A DNA stretch of 64,000 nt from Beijerinckiaceae bacterium (GTDB taxonomy: Bacteria > Pseudomonadota > Alphaproteobacteria > Rhizobiales > Beijerinckiaceae): contig CANJJI010000004.1 in NCBI GenBank assembly GCA_947474545.1, positions 1-64,000 on the forward strand, written 5' to 3'. A program made the position numbers and the translations under genes. Numbering within the stretch: position 1 is the first letter of the stretch; each line of letters begins with the position of its first letter. The notes beneath the pieces were generated by a model that made no database searches, was not told the DNA's origin, and saw only the letters and a program-made list of their open reading frames with translations. Shown here in pieces: positions 3,193 through 56,993 of the stretch.

Positions 3193-3912
3193 TTACGAAC
3201 GGCCAAGATATGGTTGATCGACAGGCAACATCGTCAGCTCGAAGACATTTGTTTCGTTCGGGAGACTGGCCATCAAGGTAATCGCCCGTGCAACGTCTTC
3301 TGTCGCCATCGTGTTCGACTTGGGACGCTGATCCATACCTGGGGAAAGTTCGGAAACAGTGGAGCCGGGATGAAGCACAGACGCCGTAATATTGAACGGC
3401 CGCGCATCAAGCGCGAGCGAATGGTTCATGGAGTGAATAGCGCCCTTGGATGCCGCATATCCGATTGCGTTCGGGCGCGGCATCTCCGCCGAAATACTGC
3501 CGATGGTGATGATGCGTCCGCGCCGAAGAGGTTTCATGCGGCGAAGAGCTTCGCGCGCACACAGGAATACGGATGAAAGATTCGTCGCTATTATTTTGTT
3601 CCAGGCTTCGAAACTTAATTCGTCCGTTGGCGTATGGTCCGCATATCCTGCACAATTAACAACGATGTGTGGGACGCCGAAGGCTTTTTCCGTCGCATCG
3701 AACAACGCGATGATGTCCGCTTCCTGCGTTACGTCAGTTCGCACCGCAATGGATTTTTGGCCGAGGCGTTTGGCGCGTTCATCCAGCCGCTCGGTACGGC
3801 GCGCAGCCATGGCGACCGAAGCCCCCTCAGCCACAAACATTTCGGCAATGCCAGCGCCGATGCCGGAGCTGGCTCCTGTCACTATCGCGATTTTACCGTC
3901 TAGTGTGCCCAT
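3193..3912 (-). CDS. SDR family oxidoreductase
   Basis: TGASSGIG and YAASK motifs. Confidence 0.9.
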   Translation of the reverse strand: MGTLDGKIAIVTGASSGIGAGIAEMFVAEGASVAMAARRTERLDERAKRLGQKSIAVRTDVTQEADIIALFDATEKAFGVPHIVVNCAGYADHTPTDELSFEAWNKIIATNLSSVFLCAREALRRMKPLRRGRIITIGSISAEMPRPNAIGYAASKGAIHSMNHSLALDARPFNITASVLHPGSTVSELSPGMDQRPKSNTMATEDVARAITLMASLPNETNVFELTMLPVDQPYLGRS

Positions 3913-3970
3913 GAATTCCTCCCCGGTGTGTTATCTCATATTTCCTCGGGCATTATGCCCGGCGACAGTT

Positions 3971-4759
3971 TCATGCCACGTTTGCGGCAGGTTTTACAAG
4001 AAAGCTTTCGCCGCGATCCAGAAAGTCGAGAGCCAGTGTGGCGACGCGTTTGGGCTGATCGAATTCGAGAGCGTGCGCAGCATCCCATATATAAGTGAGA
4101 TGGGATTGCGGGATACGCTGTTTCAGTAACTGGCCTGATTCAGGCGGAATGATCTTGTCCAGGGATCCCATCAGAACCAGAGTGCGGGCCTTGATCTCGC
4201 CAAGCCGCCCCGCCATTTGTTCGTCGAAGGCAACGCCAGCAGTATATTCGGCGACTGCTTTGCGGTTCGTCATCAGAATATGTTCGCCGCGCTTTTCTTC
4301 CGGCGCGTTCTCGGGATTGGCATGCAGGGCACGCAGACGTTCTTGTGTATCATTGGGGAGCCCGCCCTTGTCAGCGGGTCTCAGCCCGGCAGGGGCTTCC
4401 AGAACGAGCTGTCCTGCAAGTGATGGGTGGCGGATGGCGAGCCACAGCGCGATCCAGCCGCCAAAGGATTCACCGATGACATCACATTCGCCATTGCAAT
4501 GGGTGGTTATATATTCGCCGATCAGATCGGCAATGTCCTGCATGGAGGAGATGCTCGCATGACGATGCGTTCCCTCAAACCCGGGAATTACGGGAGCGTG
4601 GACCGTGTGGTGATCGGCAAGCGCCTGAACAACTTTCGACACGCGCGGACCGGCAGCGCTGTGAAGATGAATAAGTGGACGGCCCGAGCCGCCGGTGTTG
4701 ACGCGCAAGGCGCCGCTTTTCATCGCGTATTCTTTTTCGGTGAAAACAATATTTGTCAC
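3971..4759 (-). CDS. alpha/beta hydrolase
   Basis: GESFGG nucleophile elbow, C-terminal Asp/His region. Confidence 0.85.
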   Translation of the reverse strand: MTNIVFTEKEYAMKSGALRVNTGGSGRPLIHLHSAAGPRVSKVVQALADHHTVHAPVIPGFEGTHRHASISSMQDIADLIGEYITTHCNGECDVIGESFGGWIALWLAIRHPSLAGQLVLEAPAGLRPADKGGLPNDTQERLRALHANPENAPEEKRGEHILMTNRKAVAEYTAGVAFDEQMAGRLGEIKARTLVLMGSLDKIIPPESGQLLKQRIPQSHLTYIWDAAHALEFDQPKRVATLALDFLDRGESFLVKPAANVA

Positions 4760-4779
4760 GGTGATGTCCTGCTTAGCGT

Positions 4780-5916
4780 TTAGAGTGCGCGTACTTCCGG
4801 CAGTACACGGTCACGGAATAATTCCATGCTGCGGATCACCGCGGTTTGCGGCATTCTGCCCAGCGCCATGTTCATGTTGATGTGGCCTGCGCCCAGATGC
4901 TGATTGAGGCGCTTGATCTGTTTGACGACACTCGATGGACTACCGCAGAGAATTGTACCGGCTTCGATCTGTTCCTTGACACTGCGTTGCTTTAAAGTTT
5001 CAAGCCGTTTGACGAAATATTCGCCAGCACCTGCGCCGCCCGAGCCCTCGCCAAAGAAACGGGTTTTTTGCACAACGATACGTTGAGCATCCTGTTGCGG
5101 GCGCATCAGCACCTTATGGAAATAGGCGAGGGCCTCTGCCATCGTCTCTTGTGCTTCTTCATCCGTTTCGGCGATGCAGGTGCCCTGTCCAACAAGAATG
5201 TCCTCGGGCCCGGGGTTTCGACCGTGCTCCATTGAACTTGCGCGATAGGTATCAATGAGACCGCGTGCGACATCGAGGTCGCCGATCAACGTCAGGCCGA
5301 CCATGGCAGGAAACTGGCCGACAAAGGCGGCTGATTCCTTGTTGCTTGCTGACATCAACATACGCGGATGTGGCGTCTGATGCGGGCGCGGCCAGATGGA
5401 AATGGCGCGGTATTGATAGAATTCACCCTCCCAGCCGAACGGCTCGGGCTCAGTCCAGCATTTGAGAATGATGTTGAGCGCCTCGCGCATACGCCCGCGG
5501 GATTCATCGGGCGAAACATTATAGGCAATATATTCATGGGGAATGCCGCGCACGAAACCGGCAATAAGACGTCCGCCACTCATCACATCGAGCATGGCGT
5601 ATTCTTCGGCGACGCGAACCGGATTCAGGAGAGGCAGCAAATTGCCGAGCATGGCCAGCTTGACGTTCTTTGTCCGTTGGGTCAGCGCGCCGCCAACCAC
5701 ATTGCAATTGGCCATGAGTGAATAGGGCGAGAAATGATGCTCATTGCAGCCAACCCAATCGAATCCGCATGTCTCGGCATGAGCAAGCGTGTCGATATAG
5801 CGTTTGTATAATTCGGTGCCTTTTTCGCCGCGGAACTGTCCATTACGCGCCGGCCATTCGGTCGGGGCTTCTTCAAGGTCTGTCCATGGCATCAGGTGGA
5901 AGAATGAAAAATGCAT
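4780..5916 (-). CDS. LLM class flavin-dependent oxidoreductase (luciferase-like)
   Basis: CNEHHFSPYSLMANCNVVGGALTQRT and overall bacterial luciferase-like pattern. Confidence 0.88.
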   Translation of the reverse strand: MHFSFFHLMPWTDLEEAPTEWPARNGQFRGEKGTELYKRYIDTLAHAETCGFDWVGCNEHHFSPYSLMANCNVVGGALTQRTKNVKLAMLGNLLPLLNPVRVAEEYAMLDVMSGGRLIAGFVRGIPHEYIAYNVSPDESRGRMREALNIILKCWTEPEPFGWEGEFYQYRAISIWPRPHQTPHPRMLMSASNKESAAFVGQFPAMVGLTLIGDLDVARGLIDTYRASSMEHGRNPGPEDILVGQGTCIAETDEEAQETMAEALAYFHKVLMRPQQDAQRIVVQKTRFFGEGSGGAGAGEYFVKRLETLKQRSVKEQIEAGTILCGSPSSVVKQIKRLNQHLGAGHINMNMALGRMPQTAVIRSMELFRDRVLPEVRAL

Positions 5917-5990
5917 ATCTTGAGCTTTCCTCGTTTATACTTGCCGTCCGGGCCATATCGGCCTTACTGGAAATTATCCAGTATTCGTGG

Positions 5991-6848
5991 CTATCGCGGC
6001 GGCGGCTCCATTCCGCGTTCCTGATACCATTTCTCGCATTCGTCAAAAGCGGCTTGAACACGGGCATGTCTTTCGTCGAGCAGTTCACGCGCCCATGTAT
6101 GCGTGAATATGTAGAATTCGCGGTTGCGAATGGCGCGCAGGACACGTTCGCCGACAACGTCAGGCGGTAAGCCCTCGTGAAGCAGATGGGCGAATTGTTC
6201 ACTCTCTTCGCGCTTGAAAGCGCCACCCATGCGTTCAGGCCGTGCGCGGCCTGAATGAAAAATGCCGGTGTTCACGGCGGCAGGGGCGAGAATTGACAGG
6301 CCAATGTTAGAGCCTTCCAGATCCTGTTCCAGAGCTTCGCTTATGGCGACCACTGCATATTTAGACATGGAATAGGGGCCGGTATCCCAGCCCGGCTGGA
6401 TGCGGAAGCCGCCAATCGACGCGGTGTTGACGATGTGTGACTCTTCGCCGTGTTCGCGCATATGCGGCACGAAGGTCTGAAAGCCATGAATCACGCCGTA
6501 GAGGTTCACGCCAAGCACCCATTCCCAATCTTTCGCCGGCAGCTTTTCGATTGGCACACCGTGCATGGAGATCCCGGCATTGGCGCAAAACACGTGCACT
6601 TTGCCGAAGGCGTCGAACGCCTGTTGTGCAGCCCGCTGCAGCTGTTCTTTCACGCTGACATCGGCCTCAACAGCGACCGCCTGCGCGCCGAGCCTGTTCA
6701 CTTCGCCCAGCGCCTGCTCAAGACCGTCGCGGCGGATATCGCATAGAACGACGTTCATGCCGTTGCGCGCGAATGTGCGGGCCATACCGAGGCCTATGCC
6801 GGATCCGGCGCCTGTTATGAAGGCTGTCTTGCCCTGAAAATTCTGCAT
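5991..6848 (-). CDS. SDR family oxidoreductase
   Basis: Start trimmed to MQNFQGKTAFITGAGSGIG; TGAGSGIG and YSMSK motifs. Confidence 0.88.
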   Translation of the reverse strand: MQNFQGKTAFITGAGSGIGLGMARTFARNGMNVVLCDIRRDGLEQALGEVNRLGAQAVAVEADVSVKEQLQRAAQQAFDAFGKVHVFCANAGISMHGVPIEKLPAKDWEWVLGVNLYGVIHGFQTFVPHMREHGEESHIVNTASIGGFRIQPGWDTGPYSMSKYAVVAISEALEQDLEGSNIGLSILAPAAVNTGIFHSGRARPERMGGAFKREESEQFAHLLHEGLPPDVVGERVLRAIRNREFYIFTHTWARELLDERHARVQAAFDECEKWYQERGMEPPPR

Positions 6849-7023
6849 GTTTGGCGTTCCTCTGATTTTACAGAACAATATTTTTTCTGAGGGCGCAATG
6901 TCCAGAGCACGGTCATGCGTCCATATTGTGTATCGGGAATCCGGATGCCGCCCTGCGATCTGGACATACGTGCTGCCACGTGTTCGACTGTTCAATCAGG
7001 GACAGCAAGTTGGGAGCCAAATC

Positions 7024-8346
7024 GTGACATCAGCAGCGGAAAGTGAAATTCTGACTCGCGTGGGACCGGGTACGCCGCTGGGGACAATGATGCGGGAATA
7101 TTGGATTCCTGCGTTGATGTCTTCAGAGCTCGGGGCCGATGCGCCGCCCACTCGGCTTATGCTTCTGGGGGAAAAGCTGATCGCCTTTCGCGACAGCCGG
7201 GGGCGCGTGGGCATACTCGATCATCGCTGTCCGCATCGCTGCGTCTCGCTGTTTTTCGGCCGCAACGAGGAAGCTGGATTGCGCTGCACCTATCACGGCT
7301 GGAAGTTTGACGTGGATGGCAATTGTCTCGATCAGCCGAATGTTCCTGCGCATCAAGCGTTTCCTGACAAGGTGAAAGTTAAAAGCTACCCTGTCGTCGA
7401 GCGCCATGGCCTGATCTGGACCTATATGGGCGCGCGCGCCGAGCCGCCGCCTTTGCCGTGTTTTGAGTCCGTGATGCTTGCTGACCCTGCCGAACGCAAC
7501 TTGTTCTGCGTGATGCGGGAGTGCAATTGGCTGCAGGCTCTGGAAGGGGATATTGATACGTCCCACTTCAGCTTTCTGCACATGGGCGGCGTGGGCGCTG
7601 ACGAGGTGGAGGCTGAAAATCCCGGGCGTTATGCACTGATCTATCCTGCCCCTGAATATCATGTTGCGGATACGGATTGGGGCACAATGTATGCAGCCCA
7701 CCGGCCAGCAGATACGGGCAACACCTATTGGCGCTTTGCCCATTTCATGTTTCCCTTCTGGACCATCCCTCCTGACGGCAATTTCGCAGATCACGTGATC
7801 GCCCGCGCCTGGGTGCCTATGGACGATACTCACACGATGTTCATCCATTGCTCCTGGAAGAAGAATGCCCCGGGGCTGCGCAAGCGAAGGGATGGGTCGC
7901 CGATCCCCGGCGCGACGGTGGGAAACACTTATCTACCCAATACTACGGACTGGTTTGGCCGCTGGCGTCTGGCGGCAAATGTTGAGAATGACTATCTGAT
8001 CGATAGGGACGCCCAGCGCAGCGGATCGAATTATTCGGGCATCACGGGCATTCATCTTCAGGATCAAGCCCTGACGGAAAGCATGGGCGGGATCGTGGAT
8101 CATACGTACGAGCATCTTGCTGTGAGCGATCTCATGATCAACCGTACGCGGCGGCGGATATTGCAGGCTGCACGGGCTGCAGCGGAAGGCGTCACCCCGC
8201 CGGGGGTGGACCGTCCGGAAACTTTCCAGGGTGCGCGTGGCGGCGATTTTGTTTCGTCCAGCTCCATTGGCTGGCTGCAGGCCTATGGAGACGAGATGCG
8301 CGTTTCCAAAAACCCGGCTGGTGTATTGAAGGTTGCTGCGGAATGA
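7024..8346 (+). CDS. Rieske 2Fe-2S aromatic oxygenase, phthalate 4,5-dioxygenase-like oxygenase component
   Basis: Probable GTG start; Rieske CPHRC..CTYHGW and mononuclear iron D..H....H (EGDIDTSHFSFLH). Confidence 0.88.
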   Translation: MTSAAESEILTRVGPGTPLGTMMREYWIPALMSSELGADAPPTRLMLLGEKLIAFRDSRGRVGILDHRCPHRCVSLFFGRNEEAGLRCTYHGWKFDVDGNCLDQPNVPAHQAFPDKVKVKSYPVVERHGLIWTYMGARAEPPPLPCFESVMLADPAERNLFCVMRECNWLQALEGDIDTSHFSFLHMGGVGADEVEAENPGRYALIYPAPEYHVADTDWGTMYAAHRPADTGNTYWRFAHFMFPFWTIPPDGNFADHVIARAWVPMDDTHTMFIHCSWKKNAPGLRKRRDGSPIPGATVGNTYLPNTTDWFGRWRLAANVENDYLIDRDAQRSGSNYSGITGIHLQDQALTESMGGIVDHTYEHLAVSDLMINRTRRRILQAARAAAEGVTPPGVDRPETFQGARGGDFVSSSSIGWLQAYGDEMRVSKNPAGVLKVAAE

Positions 8347-11726: not shown

Positions 11727-12827
11727 TCACCGCCGCCCATTCGCCGCCTGGCCTTTCTCGATATAGTCGCGAAGAAATGTTCTGATCTGGGGCGGTGGGT
11801 TCATCGTACGCTTGAATATGTCTTCAGTATTCTTGTCTGTCACGTATTTGGGAATATATTGCATTGTCTTCTGAGCTTCGGCCTTGAAGTCAGAATCTTC
11901 CTGCATTCTTAAGAAGCCGTCCTTGAGAGCAGCCATTGCGTCGGGCGGTGAATCTTGCGGCAGATGAATTGTGCGTAAGAACAATGTCCCGACATTGTTG
12001 ACGACACGGAAGGCTTCCCACAATTCCCCACTGGGATATTCGCCTTTCACGCGCCTGTAGAAGGCCGGAAAATGCTCGGCTTCGATGCCTTGTGATTCCG
12101 GCGGCGTCGAAAACTCCTTGCCGTCGTCGTATGGATCATACCAGAGCGCGATGCCTTCTCCCGTCTTGATGATATTAGGCTCGATGGATGCCCTGTACGT
12201 AGGCATAGATTCTGCGGTCATGTGTACTTCACCACGCTGCAAGGCGAGGCGTGCTTCGGCGGAGCCACGGAATCCGGAAATGTATTTGTGGGGGATGCCG
12301 AGCATGTCGAGTTGCATGCGAATGCGGACGTCCTTGTCGGCCTCAGGCGTCAGGCCACCTGCCCAGAAGTCTCTGGCCTTCAAGATGTCCTCGGGCTTGT
12401 TGATGCCGGGTGGTACGTCCTTGCGGATATAGGCTACGCTGGTGCCGGGACCGCTGGCGATGAATCCGAGTTTCGTGACGTCGACCTTGATGCCGGGATC
12501 TCCCAGTGTTGTTTTTGATGCTGCGCCTGTGAAGAAACCGACGACAGTGCCATCGCGGGGTGCGGCCTGTCCCAGCCAGTTGAGCCCGACAATGCCCGCG
12601 CCTCCAGGCATATTTCGCGGCACGATAGTTGGTGCGCCGGGTAGGTATTTGACGATGTGACGGGCGGCGAGACGCGCTTCGAAATCGGTCGGGCCGCCCG
12701 GTGTGAAATTGATCAGAAAGGTGATTGTTTTGCCTTTGTAGAATTCATTGGGCTGGGCGTTAGAGCTGCCTGTGGCGGCCACCACAAGAGCCAAGACAGC
12801 AGCAAATGTCTTTATGTTTACACGCAC
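11727..12827 (-). CDS. Tripartite tricarboxylate transporter (TctC/Bug-type) substrate-binding protein
   Basis: Signal peptide, FYKGKTITFLINFTPGGPTDFEARL, NMPGGAGIVG; GTG start inferred. Confidence 0.78.
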   Translation of the reverse strand: MRVNIKTFAAVLALVVAATGSSNAQPNEFYKGKTITFLINFTPGGPTDFEARLAARHIVKYLPGAPTIVPRNMPGGAGIVGLNWLGQAAPRDGTVVGFFTGAASKTTLGDPGIKVDVTKLGFIASGPGTSVAYIRKDVPPGINKPEDILKARDFWAGGLTPEADKDVRIRMQLDMLGIPHKYISGFRGSAEARLALQRGEVHMTAESMPTYRASIEPNIIKTGEGIALWYDPYDDGKEFSTPPESQGIEAEHFPAFYRRVKGEYPSGELWEAFRVVNNVGTLFLRTIHLPQDSPPDAMAALKDGFLRMQEDSDFKAEAQKTMQYIPKYVTDKNTEDIFKRTMNPPPQIRTFLRDYIEKGQAANGRR

Positions 12828-12885
12828 GGATTCTCTCCCTTGCCATACCTGGCGCCAAGAATGATGGGGGATCACAATAATGATT

Positions 12886-12924
12886 GCGATCCCGGAAAAA
12901 TGCATCCGCATTTTCCGGGATGAC
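12886..12924. repeat. REP-like palindrome, half unit (GCGATCCCGG...CCGGGATGAC)
   Basis: Matches right half of the repeat at 36742-36840. Confidence 0.75.
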
Positions 12925-12931
12925 TATCCAT

Positions 12932-14089
12932 TTATTTCCCGTACGCATTCAGCACGTGCCGGGCGATAACCATTTTCATCACCTCTGTTGCACCTTCGGT
13001 GATGCGATAGCTGCGTTGCTGCCGCCACATCTTTTCTATCGGCAGGTCAGTCGTCAGGCCAATGCCGCCATGGATCTGCATGCACATATCGGCGGCCTTG
13101 AACGCCATTTCATCGGCAAAATATTTGCACATGTATGCCTCTGTGCGCGCCTGGTGACCTGCCTCGATCATGGATGCTGCGCGATAGACCAGCAGACGTG
13201 CAGCTTCCAGCTCGACATACATATCCGTGAGCATGAACTGGATCGCTTGCCGGTCGGACAGGGGCCTGCCGAAGGTTACACGTTGCTTGGCGTAGGTTGC
13301 CGCCAGTTCAAGACAGCGTTCGGCAACGCCGATGGCGCGGGCGCCATGATGGACGCGCCCGTGTCCCAGCCACTTCTGGGCGAATTTAAAGCCATCGCCT
13401 TCGCCGCCCACCATATTCTTTGCAGGCACACGGACATCTTCAAAAATGATTTCCCAGGGCTTGTCGCCCATCATCGTATTGTATTGTACGCCTAGCTTCA
13501 CACCAGGCGTATTCATATCGACGAGGAAGCAGGAAATTCCGCCCTTTGAGCCTTTTGCGCGATCGGTTGCGACCATAAGCTGAATATAATCGGCATCGCC
13601 TGCGCCGGTGATAAAGCGCTTGGTTCCATTGATGATATAATGGTCGCCGTCGCACGCAGCCACTGTTCGCATGGAGCCGGGATCAGAACCAGCGTCAGGC
13701 TCGGTTTGGCCGAAGCAGGCAATGCGTTCGCCGCGCAAAGTGGGCAGTAGATATTTTTCTTTCAACTCTCCGGTGAGATCGTAAAGATTGGAGCGCACAT
13801 GCGGGCCCATGATACCGTGCCCGCGCGCAGGAAGTGCAATGGTACGCGCGAATTCTTCCCATACGATGACGCTGGCCATCAGGTTCATGCCGAGGCCGCC
13901 GTATTCCTCCGGCACTTCCATCATCCAGAGGCCGAGTTCCTTGGTGCGGGCTTCGAATTTCTTGCGCCATTCGGGCTTCAGCTTTTCCCCGTCGCAGGTT
14001 TCGCGCTCGAACGGGATCATTTCATCGTTGACGAACCGGCGGAGCTGATCGCGCAGCATCCGCAGTTCTTCGGGCATTGTGAAGTCCAT
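12932..14089 (-). CDS. Acyl-CoA dehydrogenase family protein
   Basis: FGQTEPDAGSDPGSM, RVTFGRPLSDRQAIQFMLTDM, QIHGGIGLT. Confidence 0.93.
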   Translation of the reverse strand: MDFTMPEELRMLRDQLRRFVNDEMIPFERETCDGEKLKPEWRKKFEARTKELGLWMMEVPEEYGGLGMNLMASVIVWEEFARTIALPARGHGIMGPHVRSNLYDLTGELKEKYLLPTLRGERIACFGQTEPDAGSDPGSMRTVAACDGDHYIINGTKRFITGAGDADYIQLMVATDRAKGSKGGISCFLVDMNTPGVKLGVQYNTMMGDKPWEIIFEDVRVPAKNMVGGEGDGFKFAQKWLGHGRVHHGARAIGVAERCLELAATYAKQRVTFGRPLSDRQAIQFMLTDMYVELEAARLLVYRAASMIEAGHQARTEAYMCKYFADEMAFKAADMCMQIHGGIGLTTDLPIEKMWRQQRSYRITEGATEVMKMVIARHVLNAYGK

Positions 14090-14117
14090 GGTGTTCCCTC
14101 TGCAGTTTTGTTTCTGA

Positions 14118-14864
14118 CTATTCTGTTAGCGAAACGTAGTAACGCCAGAGCGCCGCATCGCGGCCTGCAGGCGGCGCGCCCGGTTTGCCGGGTTTGGGGT
14201 TGAGATCGCCACGCATGAAGAAGTCCTGCTCGTCTTGCGGAATAGGCTGAGGATCGCCCAGCAACTGCGCCTGATAGTTCACTTCCGCCAGATTGGTGAG
14301 GTGGATGGCGGTGAGAGCCGCTTCCTCGACATTCACGCCGGCTGTCGAAACGCCGTGGCCACGCATCATGCAGCAATCGGATTTCCCCATGGCTGCGGCC
14401 AATTCATCGCCACGTTCTGGTGTGTCGCAGAGAATGCTGCGCGGGTAGGTCGGAATGCCTTTGAACGCCAGTTTTGCGCTGGAGGGATCATAGGCTCCAT
14501 AGAGCGGTAAAAGCGGCTTGCGGCAGATGGTGAACAGCACGACCGGCAGCGGATGAACATGTACGACGGCCTGAACTTCGGGCCGGGCCTTATAAAGCGC
14601 GGTATGGATGAAGACTTCGAGGGGCGCCTCGAGGCCCTGATCGTTAACATGAACCAATTTGCCATCGAGTCCCACCTCCACGACTTGTTCGGTGGTAGTG
14701 AAACGCACGCCCAGTTCACCCGGTCCGCGTGCGCGAATGAAAACACGATCCGTGCCCGGCAAACGGGCGCTTGCATGTCCCGTCGCTCCTTTGGCCAGAC
14801 CCAGTGCGCCGAGTACGCGGCAGGCCTGCGCGACGCGGGCGCGCAATTCGTCGATCTCACTCAT
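14118..14864 (-). CDS. Class II aldolase/adducin family protein
   Basis: GHASARLPGTDRVFIRARG, VVHVHPLPVV metal site, MRGHGV. Confidence 0.88.
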   Translation of the reverse strand: MSEIDELRARVAQACRVLGALGLAKGATGHASARLPGTDRVFIRARGPGELGVRFTTTEQVVEVGLDGKLVHVNDQGLEAPLEVFIHTALYKARPEVQAVVHVHPLPVVLFTICRKPLLPLYGAYDPSSAKLAFKGIPTYPRSILCDTPERGDELAAAMGKSDCCMMRGHGVSTAGVNVEEAALTAIHLTNLAEVNYQAQLLGDPQPIPQDEQDFFMRGDLNPKPGKPGAPPAGRDAALWRYYVSLTE

Positions 14865-14900
14865 GCATTTCCTCCTGCCATTCGCCGGGCGAATGATCTG

Positions 14901-16106
14901 TTATTTCGCAGCCGCCAGTTCTTCTGCGAACTGCGCCTGCCCTTGTGAATAGGTGAAGCGGATGATCTCGTTCACCTTGGGATCGCGGACCACACCGTCG
15001 GGTTCGCCGCCTTCCTGCACCTTGCGAATCTGTTGGCGCAGGAGATCGCGATACATCACGACGCCTCTGTCGCTGGCGCCCAGCAGCTCCGTTGTGCGGT
15101 CGGCAATAGAGCCCTGCGTCTCCCAGGCCATTTGGTCCTGATAGACGAAGTTATGCAGTTCGTATTCGCCATCGGGCTGCAGCGGGTGGGTCATGATATC
15201 GAGCGGAATATCCTCATCCTTCTGGTCAACAATCGAGCCATCGTCCGTGCGAAGGAACTCCACCCAATAGATTGCCGTGTGGGTATCGTCGATGGGCACG
15301 CGGAAATGGATGGTCAGATATTTGGCCTGAGGCGCAATCAGAATGTTCGGGAAAATGGCGGGATGGCCATGTTCCTTTTCTGGCCTGTCGCCGCCATAAG
15401 TGCGCACTTTACGAATTCCGGTCCAGGATTGTTCGCGGCATAACTCGAAATCAATGCCCTCAATGGGACGGCCGAAATAGGCTAGGTCCGGCGCCCATTT
15501 CTTGGCCTCTTCTGGTGGCCGCTTCTTCAATGCGCGTTCGAAGAGTTTGGCATGCAGCCAGAAAGTGTGCGTGGGATCGTGTGAGTTCTCCTGCGCCTGC
15601 AACCAGTTGTTGTTGTGAACCGGGAGAATGACATTGGTCCGAGTGCCGTCCTTGCGAATAAGCAGCTCCCAATTAGGCAGCAGGGGGACCGGATCCGGGC
15701 CGAGATAGGCGAAGACCAGTCCGGCCAATTGCTGCACCGGATAGGAACGAAGCTTTGCCTGTTTCATCAGAGGGGAATTAGGGCGCTCATACGGCTGTTC
15801 GATGCAATTTCCATTCACATCGAATTTCCAGCCATGATAAGGGCAGCGTAACCCATCTTCCTCGCAAAAGCCGAAGTAAAGTGAGACGTGGCGGTGTGGG
15901 CAGCGCTCCGGGATCAGGCCCAGTTTGCCCTTGCCATCGCGAAACAACACGAGATTTTCGCCCATGATGCGGACGCGTTTGACCGGCTTGTCGTCAGTCA
16001 ATTCCTTGACTGCCGCAACAGGCATCCAGTAGCGCCGCAGAAGTTCGCCGCACGGCGTACCGGGGCCAACCTGGGTAAACAGGGCATTGTCATCCGCACT
16101 GAGCAT
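14901..16106 (-). CDS. Rieske 2Fe-2S aromatic oxygenase, phthalate 4,5-dioxygenase-like
   Basis: CPHRHVSLYFGFCEEDGLRCPYHGW; iron site NSHDPTHTFWLH. Confidence 0.9.
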   Translation of the reverse strand: MLSADDNALFTQVGPGTPCGELLRRYWMPVAAVKELTDDKPVKRVRIMGENLVLFRDGKGKLGLIPERCPHRHVSLYFGFCEEDGLRCPYHGWKFDVNGNCIEQPYERPNSPLMKQAKLRSYPVQQLAGLVFAYLGPDPVPLLPNWELLIRKDGTRTNVILPVHNNNWLQAQENSHDPTHTFWLHAKLFERALKKRPPEEAKKWAPDLAYFGRPIEGIDFELCREQSWTGIRKVRTYGGDRPEKEHGHPAIFPNILIAPQAKYLTIHFRVPIDDTHTAIYWVEFLRTDDGSIVDQKDEDIPLDIMTHPLQPDGEYELHNFVYQDQMAWETQGSIADRTTELLGASDRGVVMYRDLLRQQIRKVQEGGEPDGVVRDPKVNEIIRFTYSQGQAQFAEELAAAK

Positions 16107-16211
16107 GTGTTCCTCCGAGAGTCTGGCCGGTCTTGCGACAGGCTGCGTCCTTGCATTTCCGCAGAGTATGGCCAGCGGGGGAGAGGGTCAATCGCCCTCC
16201 GTACCGCTGCT

Positions 16212-17648
16212 TCATTCTGCCCCGGAGTTGCGGAATCCTGCTACGCCACGTTCAACTGCTGTCACGTGGCGGAGTGCGAATTCTTCCGGACCCGCGACGC
16301 CGCAGGAATGGGCAATCATCTCAACATCTTCACGCATCCGCTTGGCGTAATGCATCACACGGACGGATTTGTCGGTGGGATCGAGCCCTTTGATAAGTTT
16401 GGGATCAGAGGCGGTGACGCCTGTCGGGCAATTGCCGCTGCCGCATTTCATGGCCTGGATGCAGCCCAGGGAAAACGTGAAGCCACGTGCGCTGACGACA
16501 AAGTCCGCGCCGGTGCAGAGCGCCCAGGCGACCTTATCAGGGGTCACCAATTTGCCTGCGGCGACAATGCGGATGCGTTTGGTCAGCGCATGCTGTTCGC
16601 GCGCCGCGACCACCATTGGCAGCGCCATCGTAATCGGCAAACCCATGCATTCGGCCAGCGCTTCGGGCGCTGCGCCTGTCCCCCCCTCGCCGCCGTCTAC
16701 GTGGACATAATCCGGACAGCCCTCAGGATGTTGCAGGCAATCGGTGAACCATTCGTCCAGATGCTGAGCATCTCCAACAACGAACTTGACGCCAACTGGC
16801 TTGCCAGTGATGCGACGTACGCGAGCTATAAATTCACCTAACTCGCGAATACTTCCGATGTCCCTGTGCCTATTGGGGCTTATCGACGCTTGCCCTTCTG
16901 GAATGTTGCGGATACCGGCTATTTCCTTTGTAACTTTGATCGCGGGCAGTACGCCGCCCTTACCGGGCTTTGCGCCTTGCGCAAGTTTGACCTCAATCAT
17001 TCGGACATTCTCATGGGCAGCGATTGTGCGAAGTCTTTCTTCGCTGAGCCCGCCGTTTTCATCACATACGCCGTATTTCGCGGTTCCGATCTGAAACACG
17101 ATGTCTGCGCCGCCTTCAAGGTGGAAGGGCGACAATCCGCCTTCGCCGGTGCCCATCCATACGCCCGCCATCTTTGCGCCACGCGACAGCGCGGAAACGG
17201 CGGCATGGCTCAAGGCGCCGTAACTCATGCCCGAAATATTGAAAAAGCTTTGCGCTATATAAGGTCTTGCGCAGGCGCCCGGTCCCTCGATCACGCCGAT
17301 CTGCAATCCGGCAAAAGGTTTGCGATCTTCTTCCAGCACCGGAAAGGCGGCGTTTCTGAAAGCAAAACTCGGCGTCGCCTCACTGCCGAAACTGATGTAG
17401 TTCGAAACATTTTTTGAGGAGCGGTAAATCCAGGAGCGTTCCAGGCGATTGAACGGGCGTTCTTCCCAATCCGGCAAATACTGGTATTGCCGCATATATT
17501 CGCCCCATGTCTCCGCAAAATAGCGGAAATGTCCGAGGACCGGGTAATTGCGCAGAATGGTGTGCTGGGTCTGGTTGATGTCGTGAACATAGATGGCGGC
17601 AATGGCAGCAATCACGGCAAGTGTTGCAATTATGAGAAACGTCAGCAT
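16212..17648 (-). CDS. FMN-binding glutamate synthase family protein
   Basis: GltB FMN-domain-like motifs: KPGKGGVLPAIKVT, HVDGGEGGTGAAPEA, GSGNCPTGVTASDP; N-terminal TM helix. Confidence 0.92.
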   Translation of the reverse strand: MLTFLIIATLAVIAAIAAIYVHDINQTQHTILRNYPVLGHFRYFAETWGEYMRQYQYLPDWEERPFNRLERSWIYRSSKNVSNYISFGSEATPSFAFRNAAFPVLEEDRKPFAGLQIGVIEGPGACARPYIAQSFFNISGMSYGALSHAAVSALSRGAKMAGVWMGTGEGGLSPFHLEGGADIVFQIGTAKYGVCDENGGLSEERLRTIAAHENVRMIEVKLAQGAKPGKGGVLPAIKVTKEIAGIRNIPEGQASISPNRHRDIGSIRELGEFIARVRRITGKPVGVKFVVGDAQHLDEWFTDCLQHPEGCPDYVHVDGGEGGTGAAPEALAECMGLPITMALPMVVAAREQHALTKRIRIVAAGKLVTPDKVAWALCTGADFVVSARGFTFSLGCIQAMKCGSGNCPTGVTASDPKLIKGLDPTDKSVRVMHYAKRMREDVEMIAHSCGVAGPEEFALRHVTAVERGVAGFRNSGAE

Positions 17649-17736
17649 TCATTCCTCCCTTTGTGTGATACGGACTTTTTGTTATGTCAGGCTTCGAGCC
17701 ATTGCAGCGCTGTGTGACAATGGCGTGATAGGCAAA

Positions 17737-19386
17737 TCACACAGCGGATATCCGGGTTTCGCTTGAGCCAATTTCAGAATGTCCGCAAATACGCGCGACA
17801 ATCGCTTTGGCCGAAAGCTCTGCAAATTCTCCTCGCCAGGCAATATGTTGATCTGGCCGTATGAGAACCAATGGTGCGCTGTAAAGTTCATGCAATCGCG
17901 GGTCTTGTGGCGCGATAGTGCGCAGCGGCGCTTTGATATCTGCAAAAGCTTGTTGTAACGCGCTTATGAATTCATCATCGGGATCATCGCCAATAACCAG
18001 CAGAGTGAAGCCAAGTCCAAAATGATCGTAAAGAGAAGACCCATCGGCGAGCCAGAGATGGGGAGCAAGGCATCCGGGATGAGCCGAGGGGATGTATGTG
18101 GTCGAGAGCGGCGGCGGCTTCGTCCCATCTGGCGCGACAAGCGGCGAACCTGAATAATTGACGCCGAGTACTATGCCCAGAGTGTGGAATTCTGCGGCTT
18201 TTGCTTTGAGAATGTTTTCACCCATTCGCTGCCGGACGAATTCGCCTTCGGAGGAATTTTCTTCTAGCTTGTCATGCAGAAGGTGCTGGCTTTGAACAGC
18301 GAGATTGCTGACAGCCTCGTTCATCACGACATCATGGACGGGGCGGCGCTCCTGTTCGTAGGACGTCAGCAATCCCGCTCCGCCCCAACCTTGCAACACT
18401 GCAGCCAGCTTCCAGCCGATATCGACAGCGTCCGAGATGCCCATGTTCATGCCGTAACCGCCAAAGGGCGGATGTACATGACAGGCATCACCTGCCAGAA
18501 AAATGCGTCCGCCGCCATAGCTCTCTGCGCTCGCGCGGCTTGCTGTCCAGTAGTCGGCGGCGATGATTTCGGCTTCGACGGGACGTCCCACGGCCGCTTC
18601 CAGCCTATTGAAGATCTCGGGCCTGGTGAGTTCCTCTTCGCCTGGCCGAAGCACGGTCATGAAAGCCCAGAGATCGCCGGTATCCATTTGCCCGAGGGCT
18701 CCCGGGCTTTCGGGGTTCACGATCCAGTAGATGAACGCTTCACGTTCCGGTTTCGATTGTCCGAGTTGCGGGCATTTGATGATGACGTTGAGGAAATTGC
18801 CGAGATCGCGTTCGCCATTCATGGCAATGCCAAGTGCGCGCCGGACGGTGCTGCCGGGTCCGTCGGCCCCTATCACATAGTCAACGGATAACGTCTCAGC
18901 GGCGCCGGTAGCTCCATTTCTGATTTGCACCTTTACATCATCGACAGATTGATGAACGTCAGTGACCTCTGCGTTGAGCCGAATGACGACATTTGGCAGG
19001 GTGGTGAGCTTTTCGCGAAGGACAGCCTCGACCTTGTATTGCGGGATCCATTGCGCATGTTCGCTAAAGCGTTCATCGCGTTTTTTCGCGGTGAAGAATG
19101 CATTTTCAAAACAGGCAAGTTCGTAGCCGAACAACCTGGTCTTGAAGAGGATATCGGGAGGGCAGTCTGCGGCAAGCGGCGCCATCTCGCGCAGCCGGCT
19201 TGCAATGCCCCACCGGCGCATATGTTCGACAGTGCGCACATGCGTAGTTTTGGCGCGCGGGTGCCAGCCCGCGCGCTCCTGTTTTTCAAGGACTAATACA
19301 CTTATGCCGCGCAAGCCTAGTTCCAGCGCAGCGGCGAGACCCACAGGCCCTGCCCCAACGATGATAACCTGGGCATCGCGGGGCAT
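17737..19386 (-). CDS. FAD-dependent monooxygenase (PheA/TfdB-like)
   Basis: Start trimmed to MPRDAQVIIVGAGPVGLAAALELG; GADGPGSTVRR; GRIFLAGDACHVHPPFGGYGMNMGISDAVDIGWKLA. Confidence 0.9.
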   Translation of the reverse strand: MPRDAQVIIVGAGPVGLAAALELGLRGISVLVLEKQERAGWHPRAKTTHVRTVEHMRRWGIASRLREMAPLAADCPPDILFKTRLFGYELACFENAFFTAKKRDERFSEHAQWIPQYKVEAVLREKLTTLPNVVIRLNAEVTDVHQSVDDVKVQIRNGATGAAETLSVDYVIGADGPGSTVRRALGIAMNGERDLGNFLNVIIKCPQLGQSKPEREAFIYWIVNPESPGALGQMDTGDLWAFMTVLRPGEEELTRPEIFNRLEAAVGRPVEAEIIAADYWTASRASAESYGGGRIFLAGDACHVHPPFGGYGMNMGISDAVDIGWKLAAVLQGWGGAGLLTSYEQERRPVHDVVMNEAVSNLAVQSQHLLHDKLEENSSEGEFVRQRMGENILKAKAAEFHTLGIVLGVNYSGSPLVAPDGTKPPPLSTTYIPSAHPGCLAPHLWLADGSSLYDHFGLGFTLLVIGDDPDDEFISALQQAFADIKAPLRTIAPQDPRLHELYSAPLVLIRPDQHIAWRGEFAELSAKAIVARICGHSEIGSSETRISAV

Positions 19387-19390
19387 GGGG

Positions 19391-20548
19391 CTACTTGGCC
19401 CAGAGCTTCTTTGATGCGATGGCGGCGCCTTCCGACATGGCCTTGAATTTTTCCCACATGACCTTGGGATTGACTTCCGGTTTGTAGGTTGCCTGAGACG
19501 AGAAGCCACAATCAGCGCCCGCGATCACGTTTTCACGGCCGCACAGATTTGCGAAACGTGTTAGCCGTTCGGCGACCAGTTCGGGATGTTCGATGATATT
19601 GCTGGCATGGGTGATGACGCCGGGGATGATGATCTGCCCGGGCTGCAATTTGACAGTCTCGAAAACATGATACTCGTGTTCGTGACGCACGTTACCTGCC
19701 TCGAATGAGAACGCCTGCGCGTTGATTTTAAGCATGTGTGGAATGACTTCCATCAGCGAAGCTTCGTGCAGACGCGGACCGTCGTTGATGCCGTAACAGG
19801 TATGAAAGCGAACCTTTTCTGCAGGAATGCCGCGCAAGGCATGATTGATCGATTCAACATACATGCCCGCTTTGCGCGCAAGCATCTTTGCATCGTCCCT
19901 GTAATCATAGACAATGTCGGACAGGAATGGGTCGTCCACTTGCAAAAGGAAGCCAGCATCAACAATCGCCTTGTATTCGGTGCGCATGGCTTCACCGAGC
20001 GCTTCAAAGAATTCTTCCTCGGTTTTATAATATTCGTTTTGTGCGACGCCGCTTGGCGCTGTAGACGGCACAAAGGCCTCTTCATATTTCAGGCCCGTCA
20101 GCGCGCTCTTGAGATTTTCAAGATCGCGTTTAAGAATCTCCTCGCCTTTATACTTCACTGCCCCTGTGCAGAACGCGGGCACGAAGGGCGCAACAGAGCC
20201 GCCGAGCATAGCGCGCTGAAAATAGTCCGCGTAATACTCAGGAAATGCGTCAACTTCCTTGGCAAACAGGCGCAACTTGCGTTCAGGCTTGCCTTCGATG
20301 CCGGTGAGACGTTCCTGAATGTAAGAGAAGAAGCCTGGTTTTGAAGTTTCACCGTCTGCGGGGATATCAACGCCGACCTCGATCTGTTTGCGGACGATTT
20401 CAGCAGTTGCGCTTTTCAGGCGGGCGTCATATTTCCCTTTGTCATAGTCGCGGCCCGAAAGTTTTTCACGCATCATATCGAGGAGATCATGGGGCCGCGG
20501 CAACGAGCCAGCGTGTGTGACGAGTATTCTGTTCGTGCTGTGCTTCAT
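19391..20548 (-). CDS. Cobalamin-independent methionine synthase C-domain-like protein
   Basis: THAGSLPRP, zinc-ligand-like HTCYG and ADCGF motifs. Confidence 0.85.
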   Translation of the reverse strand: MKHSTNRILVTHAGSLPRPHDLLDMMREKLSGRDYDKGKYDARLKSATAEIVRKQIEVGVDIPADGETSKPGFFSYIQERLTGIEGKPERKLRLFAKEVDAFPEYYADYFQRAMLGGSVAPFVPAFCTGAVKYKGEEILKRDLENLKSALTGLKYEEAFVPSTAPSGVAQNEYYKTEEEFFEALGEAMRTEYKAIVDAGFLLQVDDPFLSDIVYDYRDDAKMLARKAGMYVESINHALRGIPAEKVRFHTCYGINDGPRLHEASLMEVIPHMLKINAQAFSFEAGNVRHEHEYHVFETVKLQPGQIIIPGVITHASNIIEHPELVAERLTRFANLCGRENVIAGADCGFSSQATYKPEVNPKVMWEKFKAMSEGAAIASKKLWAK

Positions 20549-20722
20549 TGTGCGTCTCCTCCTTGTTCACCGATATTCCGTACCGGTGATTTCGCGGCAG
20601 CAAGCTAACATATTGCATGTTGTTGAATAGAAGAAATCGTGCGGTTTTATTGATGGGCACTTGACCACTGAGTGGGCAGCGTCTTGCGGACTTGCTGTAA
20701 CTTTCAAAATTGTGCAACCGCC

Positions 20723-21517
20723 TCACACCGGGTTCGTTGTCGTTCCCTTGAACGCGAGATAGCCGCCGTCCAGCAAGAGATCCGTACCTGTCATAAACGC
20801 CGATTCATCGCTTGAAAGAAAAATCGCTCCTGCGGCGATTTCTTCGGTCTTTCCGGTTCTCCCGACGAGATAGGCGGGGCCCTTGGCGGCATTGGCTTCC
20901 TCGCGGCTTTTGAAGCGCTGCATGGCGGCGCGCAGCGTATCTATCGCTCCGGGCGAAATGGAATTGGCGCGGATGTTGTCCTTGCCGAAATCGATGGCGA
21001 GACATTTGGTGAGCTGCAGCACTGCACCCTTGGACGAACAATAGGCGGGACGTCTGGGCATTCCGATGTGGCCGTGTGACGATGCAATATTTACGATTGT
21101 GCCGCCGCCTGCGCGGCGCATTTCGCCAACCGCATATTTGCACATGAGGAACATGCCGGTGAGATTGACGTCGAATGCAGAGCGCCAGTTTTCCAGCGAC
21201 AGTTCTTCGACTGTACCGAGCGGAGTGGCTGCAGCCGCGACATTGGCCAGCGTGGTCAGTTTCCCGAAGGCGTCCACGGCGGATTTGACAACGTGTTCGC
21301 ACTGGGCAGGGTTGGTGACGTCGAGGGCTGTCGCTGTGGCGCGGCCACCGCCGGTCTTGATGTCATCGGCTACAGCTTGCGCCTTTTCCAAACTGATGTC
21401 GGCAACAAGAACTTCTGCTCCCTCTGCAGCGTATCGGCGGGCGATAGCGCTGCCGATTTCTCCCCCACCGCCGGTGACTATTGCAACGCGTCCTTCGAGT
21501 AAAAACGGTCTGGCCAT
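20723..21517 (-). CDS. SDR family oxidoreductase
   Basis: TGGGGEIG, YCSSK, FLSSDESAFMTGTDLLLDGGY. Confidence 0.92.
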   Translation of the reverse strand: MARPFLLEGRVAIVTGGGGEIGSAIARRYAAEGAEVLVADISLEKAQAVADDIKTGGGRATATALDVTNPAQCEHVVKSAVDAFGKLTTLANVAAAATPLGTVEELSLENWRSAFDVNLTGMFLMCKYAVGEMRRAGGGTIVNIASSHGHIGMPRRPAYCSSKGAVLQLTKCLAIDFGKDNIRANSISPGAIDTLRAAMQRFKSREEANAAKGPAYLVGRTGKTEEIAAGAIFLSSDESAFMTGTDLLLDGGYLAFKGTTTNPV

Positions 21518-21710: not shown

Positions 21711-22289
21711 TCAGGCTTCGCCGTCGATTTCGGCCGGTGGCTCAACAATAATATATTTTCCGGCGATGTTCACTTCAGGAACAGCAGCTTTTGTGAAAGG
21801 TACCATGCGGCTTTCGGCGGTGCCTGCGTCGATTTCCAGGATATCGCCAGCACCGAAATTGACCACGTTCAGGACTCGACCGAAACGTTCGCCACTTTTG
21901 AGCCGGGCCTCCAGGCCAATGAGATCCGTGAGGTAATATTCGTCTTCTTCTGGCGGGGGAAGTTGCAAACGGTTGACAAATATCTCTTGATTGACAAGCG
22001 TTTCGGCTGAGTCACGATTGTCGATGCCTGAAATCCGGGCAACTAACATGTCATCTTTGATGTGCCGCACATTTGATAGGCGAAATTGCCGGGAATTGTC
22101 GCGATTTACGAGTTCACCATAGCGTGCAATCGCCAATGGTTCAGCTGTGAATGACTTGATGCGTATTTCGCCGCGCACACCGTGCGCTGCGCCAAATCTG
22201 CCCACCAAAATCAGATTCTTAGGGCCAGAAGGCGATTTTCTGGGTTGGGCCGCGTCGGGATGGGTGGACTTATCCGGCTGCCGGCTCAT
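21711..22289 (-). CDS. rimM: Ribosome maturation factor RimM
   Basis: LVGRFGAAHGVRGEIRIKSFTAEP; LIGLEA. Confidence 0.93.
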   Translation of the reverse strand: MSRQPDKSTHPDAAQPRKSPSGPKNLILVGRFGAAHGVRGEIRIKSFTAEPLAIARYGELVNRDNSRQFRLSNVRHIKDDMLVARISGIDNRDSAETLVNQEIFVNRLQLPPPEEDEYYLTDLIGLEARLKSGERFGRVLNVVNFGAGDILEIDAGTAESRMVPFTKAAVPEVNIAGKYIIVEPPAEIDGEA

Positions 22290-55408: not shown

Positions 55409-56566
55409 TCACCCCCACAGCTGCTTGCTCGCAATCCTCGCGCCCTCCGCAAGGCTTTTCAACTTGGCGGTGACGACAGTGGGGTGCACTTCCGGCACAT
55501 CACGCGGCGTGGACGCAAAACCGCAGTCGGTTGAGGCAATGACGCGCTCCTTGCCGACGACACCGGCGAATTTGCAGATCCGTTCGGCGATGAGTTCGGG
55601 ATGTTCCACCAGCACGGAGGCATGGGTGATCATGCCCGGCAGCAGCGCCTTTTCTGCAGGCAGTTTTGCGTCTGCCCAGATTTTCCATTCATGCTCATGG
55701 CGCGGGTTGGCGAATTCGAACGAATAATAATTCGCGTTGATGCCGAGGATGATGTCCGTGAGGTGCTTCATCTCCATGTCGTGGGTGCGCGGGCCCATGT
55801 TGATGCCGTAACATGTATGATGGCGGACCCGTTCAGCGGGAATGTTGCGGATGGAATGATTCATCGCTTCGACGCGCTGCCACGCCCATTTGCGCGCCTG
55901 TTCCAGTGTCATTTCGGGATTGAGCATGTAGTGCATGGCAAGGCGGGGATCGTCGAGCTGCACGGAAAAGCCCGCTGCAACTATGGCCTCGTATTCAACG
56001 CGCATGGTTTCGGCGCAGGCTTCCAGAAACTCATCCTCGGTCTTGTAGAATTCGTTGACGACAGCCCCTTCCACAGTGCCAACGGAAGCGGCGGGAATGA
56101 AGACATCGGTAAAATTTCGCCCGGCAATGGCGCTTTTCAGATTATCAAGATCGGCTTTGAGAATATCCATGCCCGTATAGGACAACGCGCCGGTGCAGCG
56201 CGATCCTGCCGGCTGGGTGCCGGAATGTCCGGCTGCATAAAATTCCGGAAAGGCATCGATTTCCTTGGTGTGTGCGCGGCCCTTTGCGCCGGGCGGGCGC
56301 GCCTCGACGCCGCCAACGCGCTCTTTCACATAAGCGAAAAAGCCGGTCTTGGATTGCTCGCCATCGCTGATGATATCAATGCCGCAATCGGCCTGATAGG
56401 CGACGCATTCGCTGACGGTCTTGCGCACTGTATCCGCATAGAGCTTTGAATCAACCGGACGGCCGTCCATCCGCGCGACCATGAGTTCACTCAAGGCGGG
56501 CGGTCTTGGCAGTGAGCCGACATGGGTTGTGAGAATCCGCTTTGTGCGTTCGGCCGCAAGTGTCAT
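55409..56566 (-). CDS. Cobalamin-independent methionine synthase C-domain-like protein
   Basis: THVGSLPRPPAL, HTCYGINMGPR, STDCGFAS; start trimmed to MTLAAERTKRI. Confidence 0.87.
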   Translation of the reverse strand: MTLAAERTKRILTTHVGSLPRPPALSELMVARMDGRPVDSKLYADTVRKTVSECVAYQADCGIDIISDGEQSKTGFFAYVKERVGGVEARPPGAKGRAHTKEIDAFPEFYAAGHSGTQPAGSRCTGALSYTGMDILKADLDNLKSAIAGRNFTDVFIPAASVGTVEGAVVNEFYKTEDEFLEACAETMRVEYEAIVAAGFSVQLDDPRLAMHYMLNPEMTLEQARKWAWQRVEAMNHSIRNIPAERVRHHTCYGINMGPRTHDMEMKHLTDIILGINANYYSFEFANPRHEHEWKIWADAKLPAEKALLPGMITHASVLVEHPELIAERICKFAGVVGKERVIASTDCGFASTPRDVPEVHPTVVTAKLKSLAEGARIASKQLWG

Positions 56567-56657
56567 GGCGTTTCCTGAAAGTTGTTTGTTGCTTCTATAA
56601 GAGAATTGGCATGAAATCGGCTTCAACGGCAAGCGCCTGCCAAACCGGAAATAGCCC

Positions 56658-56993
56658 ATGTCAGCAGAAGAATTTCCCGCCTTTCATGCCCACGTCTATT
56701 TCGATGCTGCGAGCGTGGAAAAAGCGCGCGATATCTGTACACGATGCAGCGAAAAATTTGGCATCCGCATGGGGCGCATGCACGAGCGGCCCGTCGGCCC
56801 ACATCCCGATTTCAGCTGTCAGCTGACTGTGCCCGCTGAGAAAGTGGGCGAGGTCCTGACGTGGCTGGCCTTTCATCGTGATGGGCTTGTTGTGTTTTCG
56901 CACCCCAACACGGCTGATGCGCTGACCGATCATCGTGATCGCGCAATCTGGATGGGAGCGGTCAGGCCGCTGGATTTGGGGGCGCTGGGGTAA
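56658..56993 (+). CDS. DOPA 4,5-dioxygenase family protein
   Basis: FHAHVYFDAASVEKARDI; RPVGPHPDFSCQLTV; HRDGLVVFSHPNTADALTDHRDRAIWMG. Confidence 0.9.
   Translation: MSAEEFPAFHAHVYFDAASVEKARDICTRCSEKFGIRMGRMHERPVGPHPDFSCQLTVPAEKVGEVLTWLAFHRDGLVVFSHPNTADALTDHRDRAIWMGAVRPLDLGALG

Follow-up and report, generated by a model that had tools for sequence, protein, structure and literature searches.

What purpose an enzyme resembling methionine synthase might serve among aromatic-ring oxygenases is the question raised by a block of eight neighbouring minus-strand genes at positions 11,727 to 21,517 of contig CANJJI010000004.1 (assembly GCA_947474545.1). The first 64,000 nucleotides of this contig, here called the window, come from an uncultured rhizobial-order bacterium (Beijerinckiaceae). 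The block encodes a short-chain dehydrogenase/reductase (SDR), a MetE-like protein, a flavin adenine dinucleotide (FAD)-dependent monooxygenase, a flavin mononucleotide (FMN) glutamate-synthase-like (GltB-like) protein, a Rieske oxygenase, a class II aldolase-fold protein, an acyl-coenzyme A (CoA) dehydrogenase (ACAD) and a TctC/Bug-type binding protein, all in intact open frames. We read it as a catabolic operon of a small clade of one genus that would import and oxidatively break down a carboxylated, probably methylated (methoxy-) aromatic compound, and we give this reading a rough probability of 0.42. The substrate, the order of steps and the methyl transfer by the MetE-like enzyme are what we infer from the encoded families and their neighbours.

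The arrangement is real and conserved. Its enzyme families are known; full-text searches of open-licence PMC papers found no earlier description of the arrangement and no published pathway with this gene set, and as far as those searches reached, the original prediction that it matches no textbook pathway stands. That prediction also listed eight co-directional minus-strand genes; order, families and coordinates were right, with only two starts corrected. The monooxygenase is assigned the ATG at 19386, because homology to two related loci (L045 and L046) begins at or next to that codon; the longest open frame (to 19509) would overlap metE. The binding-protein gene starts at a GTG near 12827 with a ribosome-binding site (AAGGGAGAG) and not at 12911, because the longer frame crosses a palindrome. 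The near-contact of the metE-like stop and the monooxygenase start is confirmed, with 4 nt between the stop codon (19393-19391) and the ATG (TAG CCCC ATG). Promoter and terminator scans of the block gave matches at chance level only.

Conservation was assessed with a scan of 84,980 species genomes by the MetE-like protein, a single-protein search that finds close relatives only, and with searches of all 51 genus genomes by the Rieske, MetE-like, FAD and GltB-like proteins. Neighbourhoods were compared by BLAST; neighbour genes elsewhere were called by a simple script, selected ones only being checked against Pfam. Most of the genomes are metagenome-assembled genomes (MAGs), so the absence of a gene may reflect an assembly gap. 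A search for the eight-gene neighbourhood, as originally proposed, found it in two relatives of the same genus. A freshwater MAG (G710, locus L045) carries the complete set, gene for gene, with proteins 82-97% identical; the DNA alignment extends over 9,867 bp at 82% nucleotide identity and stops at the two borders of the block, where sdr begins and the binding-protein gene ends. A MAG from Lake Erken (G695, locus L046) carries metE through the binding protein at 72-92% identity, and its loci L169 and L116 put a further TctC gene between sdr and metE, an order deduced across the junction of two contigs. SDR orthologues are 90% (L045), 82% (L169) and 79% (L173) identical, the L169 and L173 copies following rimM. 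Ratios of nonsynonymous to synonymous substitution (dN/dS) of 0.02-0.10 for every gene, against both L045 and L046, indicate strong purifying selection and therefore genes kept functional. The full eight-gene set is absent from every more distant genome examined.

The block appears to lie just downstream of rimM in both relatives, as it does in the window. The rimM site was compared in eight genomes. In G695, rimM and sdr lie close to the end of contig C13, and the final 141 bases of that contig are the first 141 of C61; this exact overlap makes it probable that the run from rimM through sdr, TctC and metE to the binding protein is continuous. In G710 one contig breaks off just past rimM and the operon contig starts just before sdr, and comparison of these two ends found no long overlap. 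Shorter versions occur in G690, with rimM, sdr and metE on one contig (59% over 102 residues), and in G697, with rimM and metE (64%); the linkage of the MetE-like gene to rimM thus probably predates the other parts of the operon. A recent genomic island was also considered and lowered, because rimM precedes the block or its sdr/metE piece in the window genome, G695, G690, G697 and probably G710. A scan for trmD/rplS motifs beside rimM, run without a positive control, gave no match in any locus.

The MetE-like protein belongs to the MetE catalytic-domain superfamily (PF01717, 48.6 bits): its zinc ligands are present and its fold is supported by a model. The ligands H249-x-C251, E283 and C347 are intact and align with those of T. 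maritima MetE. The AlphaFold (AF2) model (predicted local distance difference test score, pLDDT, 85.7) is a single barrel that best matches the same enzyme, with template modelling (TM) scores of 0.75-0.77. Invariant across 21 sequences are E67, D205 and S15, the positions (Glu, Asp and Ser) with which MetE touches homocysteine. The N-terminal folate domain is absent, and the protein falls far from full-length MetE (TIGR01371), with 385 residues against about 750 and 27.6 bits against a cut-off of 929.95. In the protein tree the window copy groups with those of L045 and L046 (100/100), and with the G697 copy among others (95/90). Eight more paralogues are encoded in the window genome (G000), at 55409-56659 of the window (minus strand) and on contigs C83, C2, C17, C18, C79 and C229. 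A tandem pair stands on C83, and comparable pairs occur on contig C56 of G695 and contig C443 of G710.

Recurrence of MetE-like genes beside ring-cleavage-type genes suggests a place for the protein in aromatic catabolism. The isolate Roseiarcaceae bacterium H3SJ34-1 (genome G678) carries two related loci, L113 and L137. On one strand of L137 are genes for a cupin dioxygenase, a FAD hydroxylase/monooxygenase (36%), a class II aldolase (31%), Bug-like and TctC proteins and a MetE-like protein (41%), with LigB and Rieske/LigXa (39%) genes on the opposite strand. This MetE-like protein falls in a distant subfamily of the tree, and the aromatic association therefore probably arose or was kept more than once. 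In the window genome itself, locus L074 combines MetE-like, cupin, FAD-binding and Rieske (58%) genes. At L115 a MetE-like gene is accompanied by a Rieske gene (51%) and by GFO/IDH/MocA genes. Within 9 kb, loci L117 and L118 hold a MetE-like gene (59-60%), a Liv-type ATP-binding cassette transporter, a LysR gene, a FAD monooxygenase gene (46%) and a PF00903 gene. Demethylation of a substituted aromatic, first raised as a mere possibility, is better grounded by these neighbours and by the intact zinc and homocysteine positions, and is still put forward as a possibility.

MetE-like genes also occur in other settings. On the Roseobacter plasmids L090 and L091, one stands in a conserved string of hisD, SnoaL-like, SDR, LacI, cupin, MetE-like, alpha/beta hydrolase and RraA genes, another unexplained catabolic context. 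On the Dietzia plasmid pI (L089), a 2-oxoglutarate/iron oxygenase gene comes immediately after the MetE-like gene, and a gene of the phytanoyl-CoA dioxygenase family lies downstream. On a plasmid of Rhodococcus sp. PD04 (L088), a MetE-like gene comes directly after full-length metE.

Table 1. Features of the block and its flank, in window coordinates.
Feature	Position	Strand	Basis or remark
SDR-family dehydrogenase, 264 aa	20723..21517	-	PF13561/PF00106; 193 bp downstream of rimM
MetE-like core, cobalamin-independent methionine synthase II family, 385 aa	19391..20548	-	PF01717
FAD-dependent aromatic-ring monooxygenase, 549 aa	17737..19386	-	PF01494 + PF21274
Stand-alone FMN/[3Fe-4S] glutamate-synthase-domain protein (gltB), 478 aa	16212..17648	-	PF01645, 280.7 bits
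Rieske oxygenase alpha subunit, phthalate-dioxygenase/LigXa type, 401 aa	14901..16106	-	PF00355, PF19301
Class II aldolase-fold protein, probable decarboxylase, 248 aa	14118..14864	-	PF00596
ACAD, short-chain/acryloyl-CoA reductase-like, 385 aa	12932..14089	-	PF02771/PF02770/PF00441
Palindrome between ACAD and binding-protein genes	12889..12921	.	Perfect inverted repeat
Divergent TctC/Bug-type periplasmic binding protein, 366 aa	11727..12827	-	No Pfam match; PDB 6hke
rimM, upstream neighbour marking the conserved site	21711..22289	-	TIGR02273, 151.2 bits

The partner enzymes fit the oxidative breakdown of an aromatic acid (Table 1). The monooxygenase is a member of the PRK06126 family (NF004780, 559.9 bits, cut-off 445); its PF21274 match is a ring-hydroxylase C-terminal domain, and RebC is its nearest solved structure. 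The gltB product has a hydrophobic N-terminal segment and a C-x5-C-x4-C motif (GCIQAMKCGSGNC). The ACAD carries three acyl-CoA dehydrogenase domains, with 5ol2, 1ukw and SCAD as nearest solved structures. The aldolase-fold protein has E83, H102, H104 and H170 at the expected metal-ligand positions. Its best model is that of the 3,4-dihydroxyphthalate decarboxylase PhtC (NF053537), at 184.3 bits and below the cut-off of 200, and it is probably a related decarboxylase. A class II aldolase-family decarboxylase, DhbB, is known from 2,3-dihydroxybenzoate catabolism (PMC6362003).

The Rieske protein keeps the C-x-H/C-x2-H motif and the D/H/H mononuclear iron ligands, and it matches the LigXa_C family PF19301 at 51.8 bits (cut-off 27). 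LigXa is the oxygenase of the 5,5'-dehydrodivanillate O-demethylase of Sphingobium SYK-6. The two proteins share PF19301 above the cut-off, and relatives occur with LigB-type ring opening; unlike LigXa, the window protein covers positions 205-259 only of the 304-position LigXa_C profile, and the operon has no LigXc- or LigXd-like partners. The LigXa_C family has at least 14 copies in the window genome (14 of 14 scored were confirmed, among 49 first-look candidates) against 0-3 in 149 order-mates. About 60 Rieske-oxygenase matches occur in this 4.8 Mb genome as a whole, and Rieske/LigXa counts are large in many of the 51 genus genomes and low in others. A second Rieske/LigXa oxygenase gene (6847-8346, plus strand) lies within window positions 3193-8346, opposite a minus-strand cluster of SDR, luciferase-like monooxygenase, hydrolase and SDR genes.

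A PDB search (6hke, E-value 7e-5) and its relatives indicate that the binding protein is a diverged homologue of the TctC/Bug proteins. Even at E<=5 it matches no Pfam family, and it does not reach the gathering cut-off of PF03401 (TctC/Bug); an orthologue in L113 matches PF03401 at an E-value of 9e-5, below the curated cut-off. Orthologues stand at 92%, 84% and 54% identity, and an AlphaFold model (pLDDT 44.9) was not used. Elsewhere in the window genome, positions 1-12000 of L105 (contig C88) hold six Bug-type binding-protein genes in a row, adjoining a Rieske oxygenase gene. The palindrome upstream of the binding-protein gene has a chance expectation of 0.01 and looks like a repetitive extragenic palindromic (REP) element: more than 20 similar sites of about 40 bp lie elsewhere in the genome, and in L045 a hairpin occupies the corresponding site and shows a compensatory change from A-T to G-C.

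These families allow a tentative sequence of steps. The TctC/Bug-type protein would bind an aromatic acid in the periplasm. The MetE-like enzyme, the candidate demethylase, would hold homocysteine as a zinc thiolate that accepts a methyl group from the substrate, yielding methionine and a free phenol, which the FAD enzyme would hydroxylate. The Rieske enzyme might then oxygenate the ring or take off a second O-methyl group, the class II aldolase-fold enzyme would decarboxylate an ortho-hydroxy acid, and the SDR would oxidise a diol or alcohol. A CoA ester formed later would be the substrate of the ACAD. Genes elsewhere would supply ring cleavage, CoA activation and a Rieske reductase.

A neighbour count favours this reading: oxygenase, aldolase-fold or ACAD genes lie within about 10 kb of 10 of 19 MetE-like loci in three genomes, while among 20 control stretches only 1 has such a gene (p=0.001 by Fisher's test). 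The real weight of the count is lower because several of the loci are orthologues from the three genomes and not independent. Other observations weigh against the reading. Many MetE-like copies adjoin transporters only. Among the operon genes there is no ring-cleavage, CoA-ligase or reductase gene, and the Rieske enzyme itself could be the O-demethylase, in which case the MetE-like protein has another role. Nor is the block uniformly inherited: gltB is mostly single-copy, is present in 41 of the 51 genus genomes, and has no Rieske gene beside it in G692 and G679. Genome G678 (L113) has gltB, Rieske, ACAD and binding-protein genes, lacking the aldolase gene and the rest. The spacer between sdr and metE is 174 bp, and this pair follows rimM in G690. 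From gltB standing without a Rieske gene and from the reduced set in G678 it follows that parts of the block may be unrelated. The same gltB pattern made it less likely that the GltB-like protein serves the Rieske enzyme alone as redox partner, an idea prompted by the position of gltB directly upstream in five genomes.

An aromatic-carboxylate operon that performs no demethylation is rather unlikely. Its Rieske, decarboxylase and SDR steps would be phthalate-like, and the MetE-like zinc site would add or remove a thiol, as in the alkyl transfer of epoxyalkane:coenzyme M transferase (EaCoMT). The Rieske and aldolase-fold proteins do resemble phthalate enzymes. The phthalate operon of Arthrobacter keyseri plasmid pRE1 likewise has Rieske genes followed by a class II aldolase-fold protein, presumably PhtC, that is 39% identical to the window's. 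It differs in a two-subunit oxygenase and in the ferredoxin and reductase within the operon, and the pRE1 stretch that was read has, unlike the window, no MetE-like, FAD phenol hydroxylase, GltB-like, ACAD or Bug-type protein. Locus L098, of the same class, is also phthalate-like: its Rieske (50%), GFO/IDH/MocA dehydrogenase, aldolase-fold (55%), amidohydrolase and two LigB genes are laid out as expected for aromatic-carboxylate catabolism, which speaks for the preferred reading as well.

The nearest solved relatives of the Rieske protein are the phthalate and isophthalate dioxygenases of Comamonas testosteroni KF1 (7FJL/7V25/7V28), in which R207 and R244 bind the substrate carboxylate in the phthalate enzyme (PMC12445078). 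The window protein shares the family, the iron ligands and an Arg at the R207 position. At the R244/R234 position it has no Arg (His aligns with R244, in a gapped part of the alignment), so that the carboxylate-binding pair of phthalate 4,5-dioxygenase is incomplete and the substrate of the Rieske enzyme uncertain; unlike the KF1 genes, it also has no adjoining reductase gene. As to the thiol chemistry, XecA, the EaCoMT of Xanthobacter plasmid pXAUT01 (comparison sequence CP000782), is likewise a catabolic member of the MetE superfamily with adjoining SDRs. The relationship is distant, however: XecA is only 20% identical to the MetE-like protein and has Arg where Glu-67 stands, which places the latter outside the EaCoMT family and is why an epoxide/coenzyme M route was rejected as first choice. 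The surroundings of the operon showed no genes for coenzyme M synthesis.

Unlikely, too, is that several units with different substrates have merely come to be aligned: an old sdr-metE pair tied to rimM, a gltB that is mostly single-copy, and a set of Rieske, aldolase, ACAD and binding-protein genes. Such a patchwork would suit the spacers (174, 88 and 105 bp) and the hairpin that precedes the last gene, as well as the gltB distribution and the G678 subset described above. In G690 the rimM-sdr-metE run and a gltB-Rieske pair reaching the contig end (L112) lie on separate contigs, and the sdr and metE genes at one end of the block are probably a distinct piece of greater age. Against it, gene order is retained in three genomes despite synonymous divergence of 0.7 to 3.5, and metE and the monooxygenase gene are 4-5 nt apart in two genomes and occur together in L117/L118 as well. 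Of the single eight-gene unit first proposed, the block co-conserved in two relatives holds, while its service of a single pathway is weakened.

An accessory methionine-synthase role for the MetE-like protein, in which it would use methyl groups freed by the Rieske or FAD enzymes through a carrier, is improbable. In its favour, the protein has the MetE fold, zinc site and homocysteine contacts, and the folate-independent core synthases MesA-MesD (PMC7857596) share its single catalytic barrel of at most about 386 residues and its zinc site. But the window genome encodes MetH (1742 bits), so that methionine synthesis does not depend on the protein, and unlike these synthases it is linked to aromatic oxygenases and transporters and multiplied up to nine times; paralogues in many differing catabolic neighbourhoods are untypical of a biosynthetic enzyme.

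With the catabolic operon for a carboxylated, probably methoxylated aromatic as the preferred reading, a wider proposal may be made, though we hold it to be doubtful. The MetE-like family multiplied in this genus might be a new class of catabolic aryl (or N- or S-) demethylases, which would use zinc and neither folate nor cobalamin to pass methyl groups from methoxylated aromatics directly to homocysteine, each copy being paired with its own importer and oxygenases.

The routes known for aerobic aryl O-demethylation rely on Rieske or P450 oxygenases, or on the folate-dependent enzymes LigM and DesA. The genus that harbours the operon is unusually rich in Rieske oxygenases. The new element of the operon is the recurrence, with aromatic-degradation genes, of a MetE-like enzyme for which a demethylase role is hypothesised. 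If this is true, the MetE-like zinc enzymes that recur with aromatic hydroxylases, decarboxylases and ring-opening dioxygenases would represent a further route of aryl demethylation.

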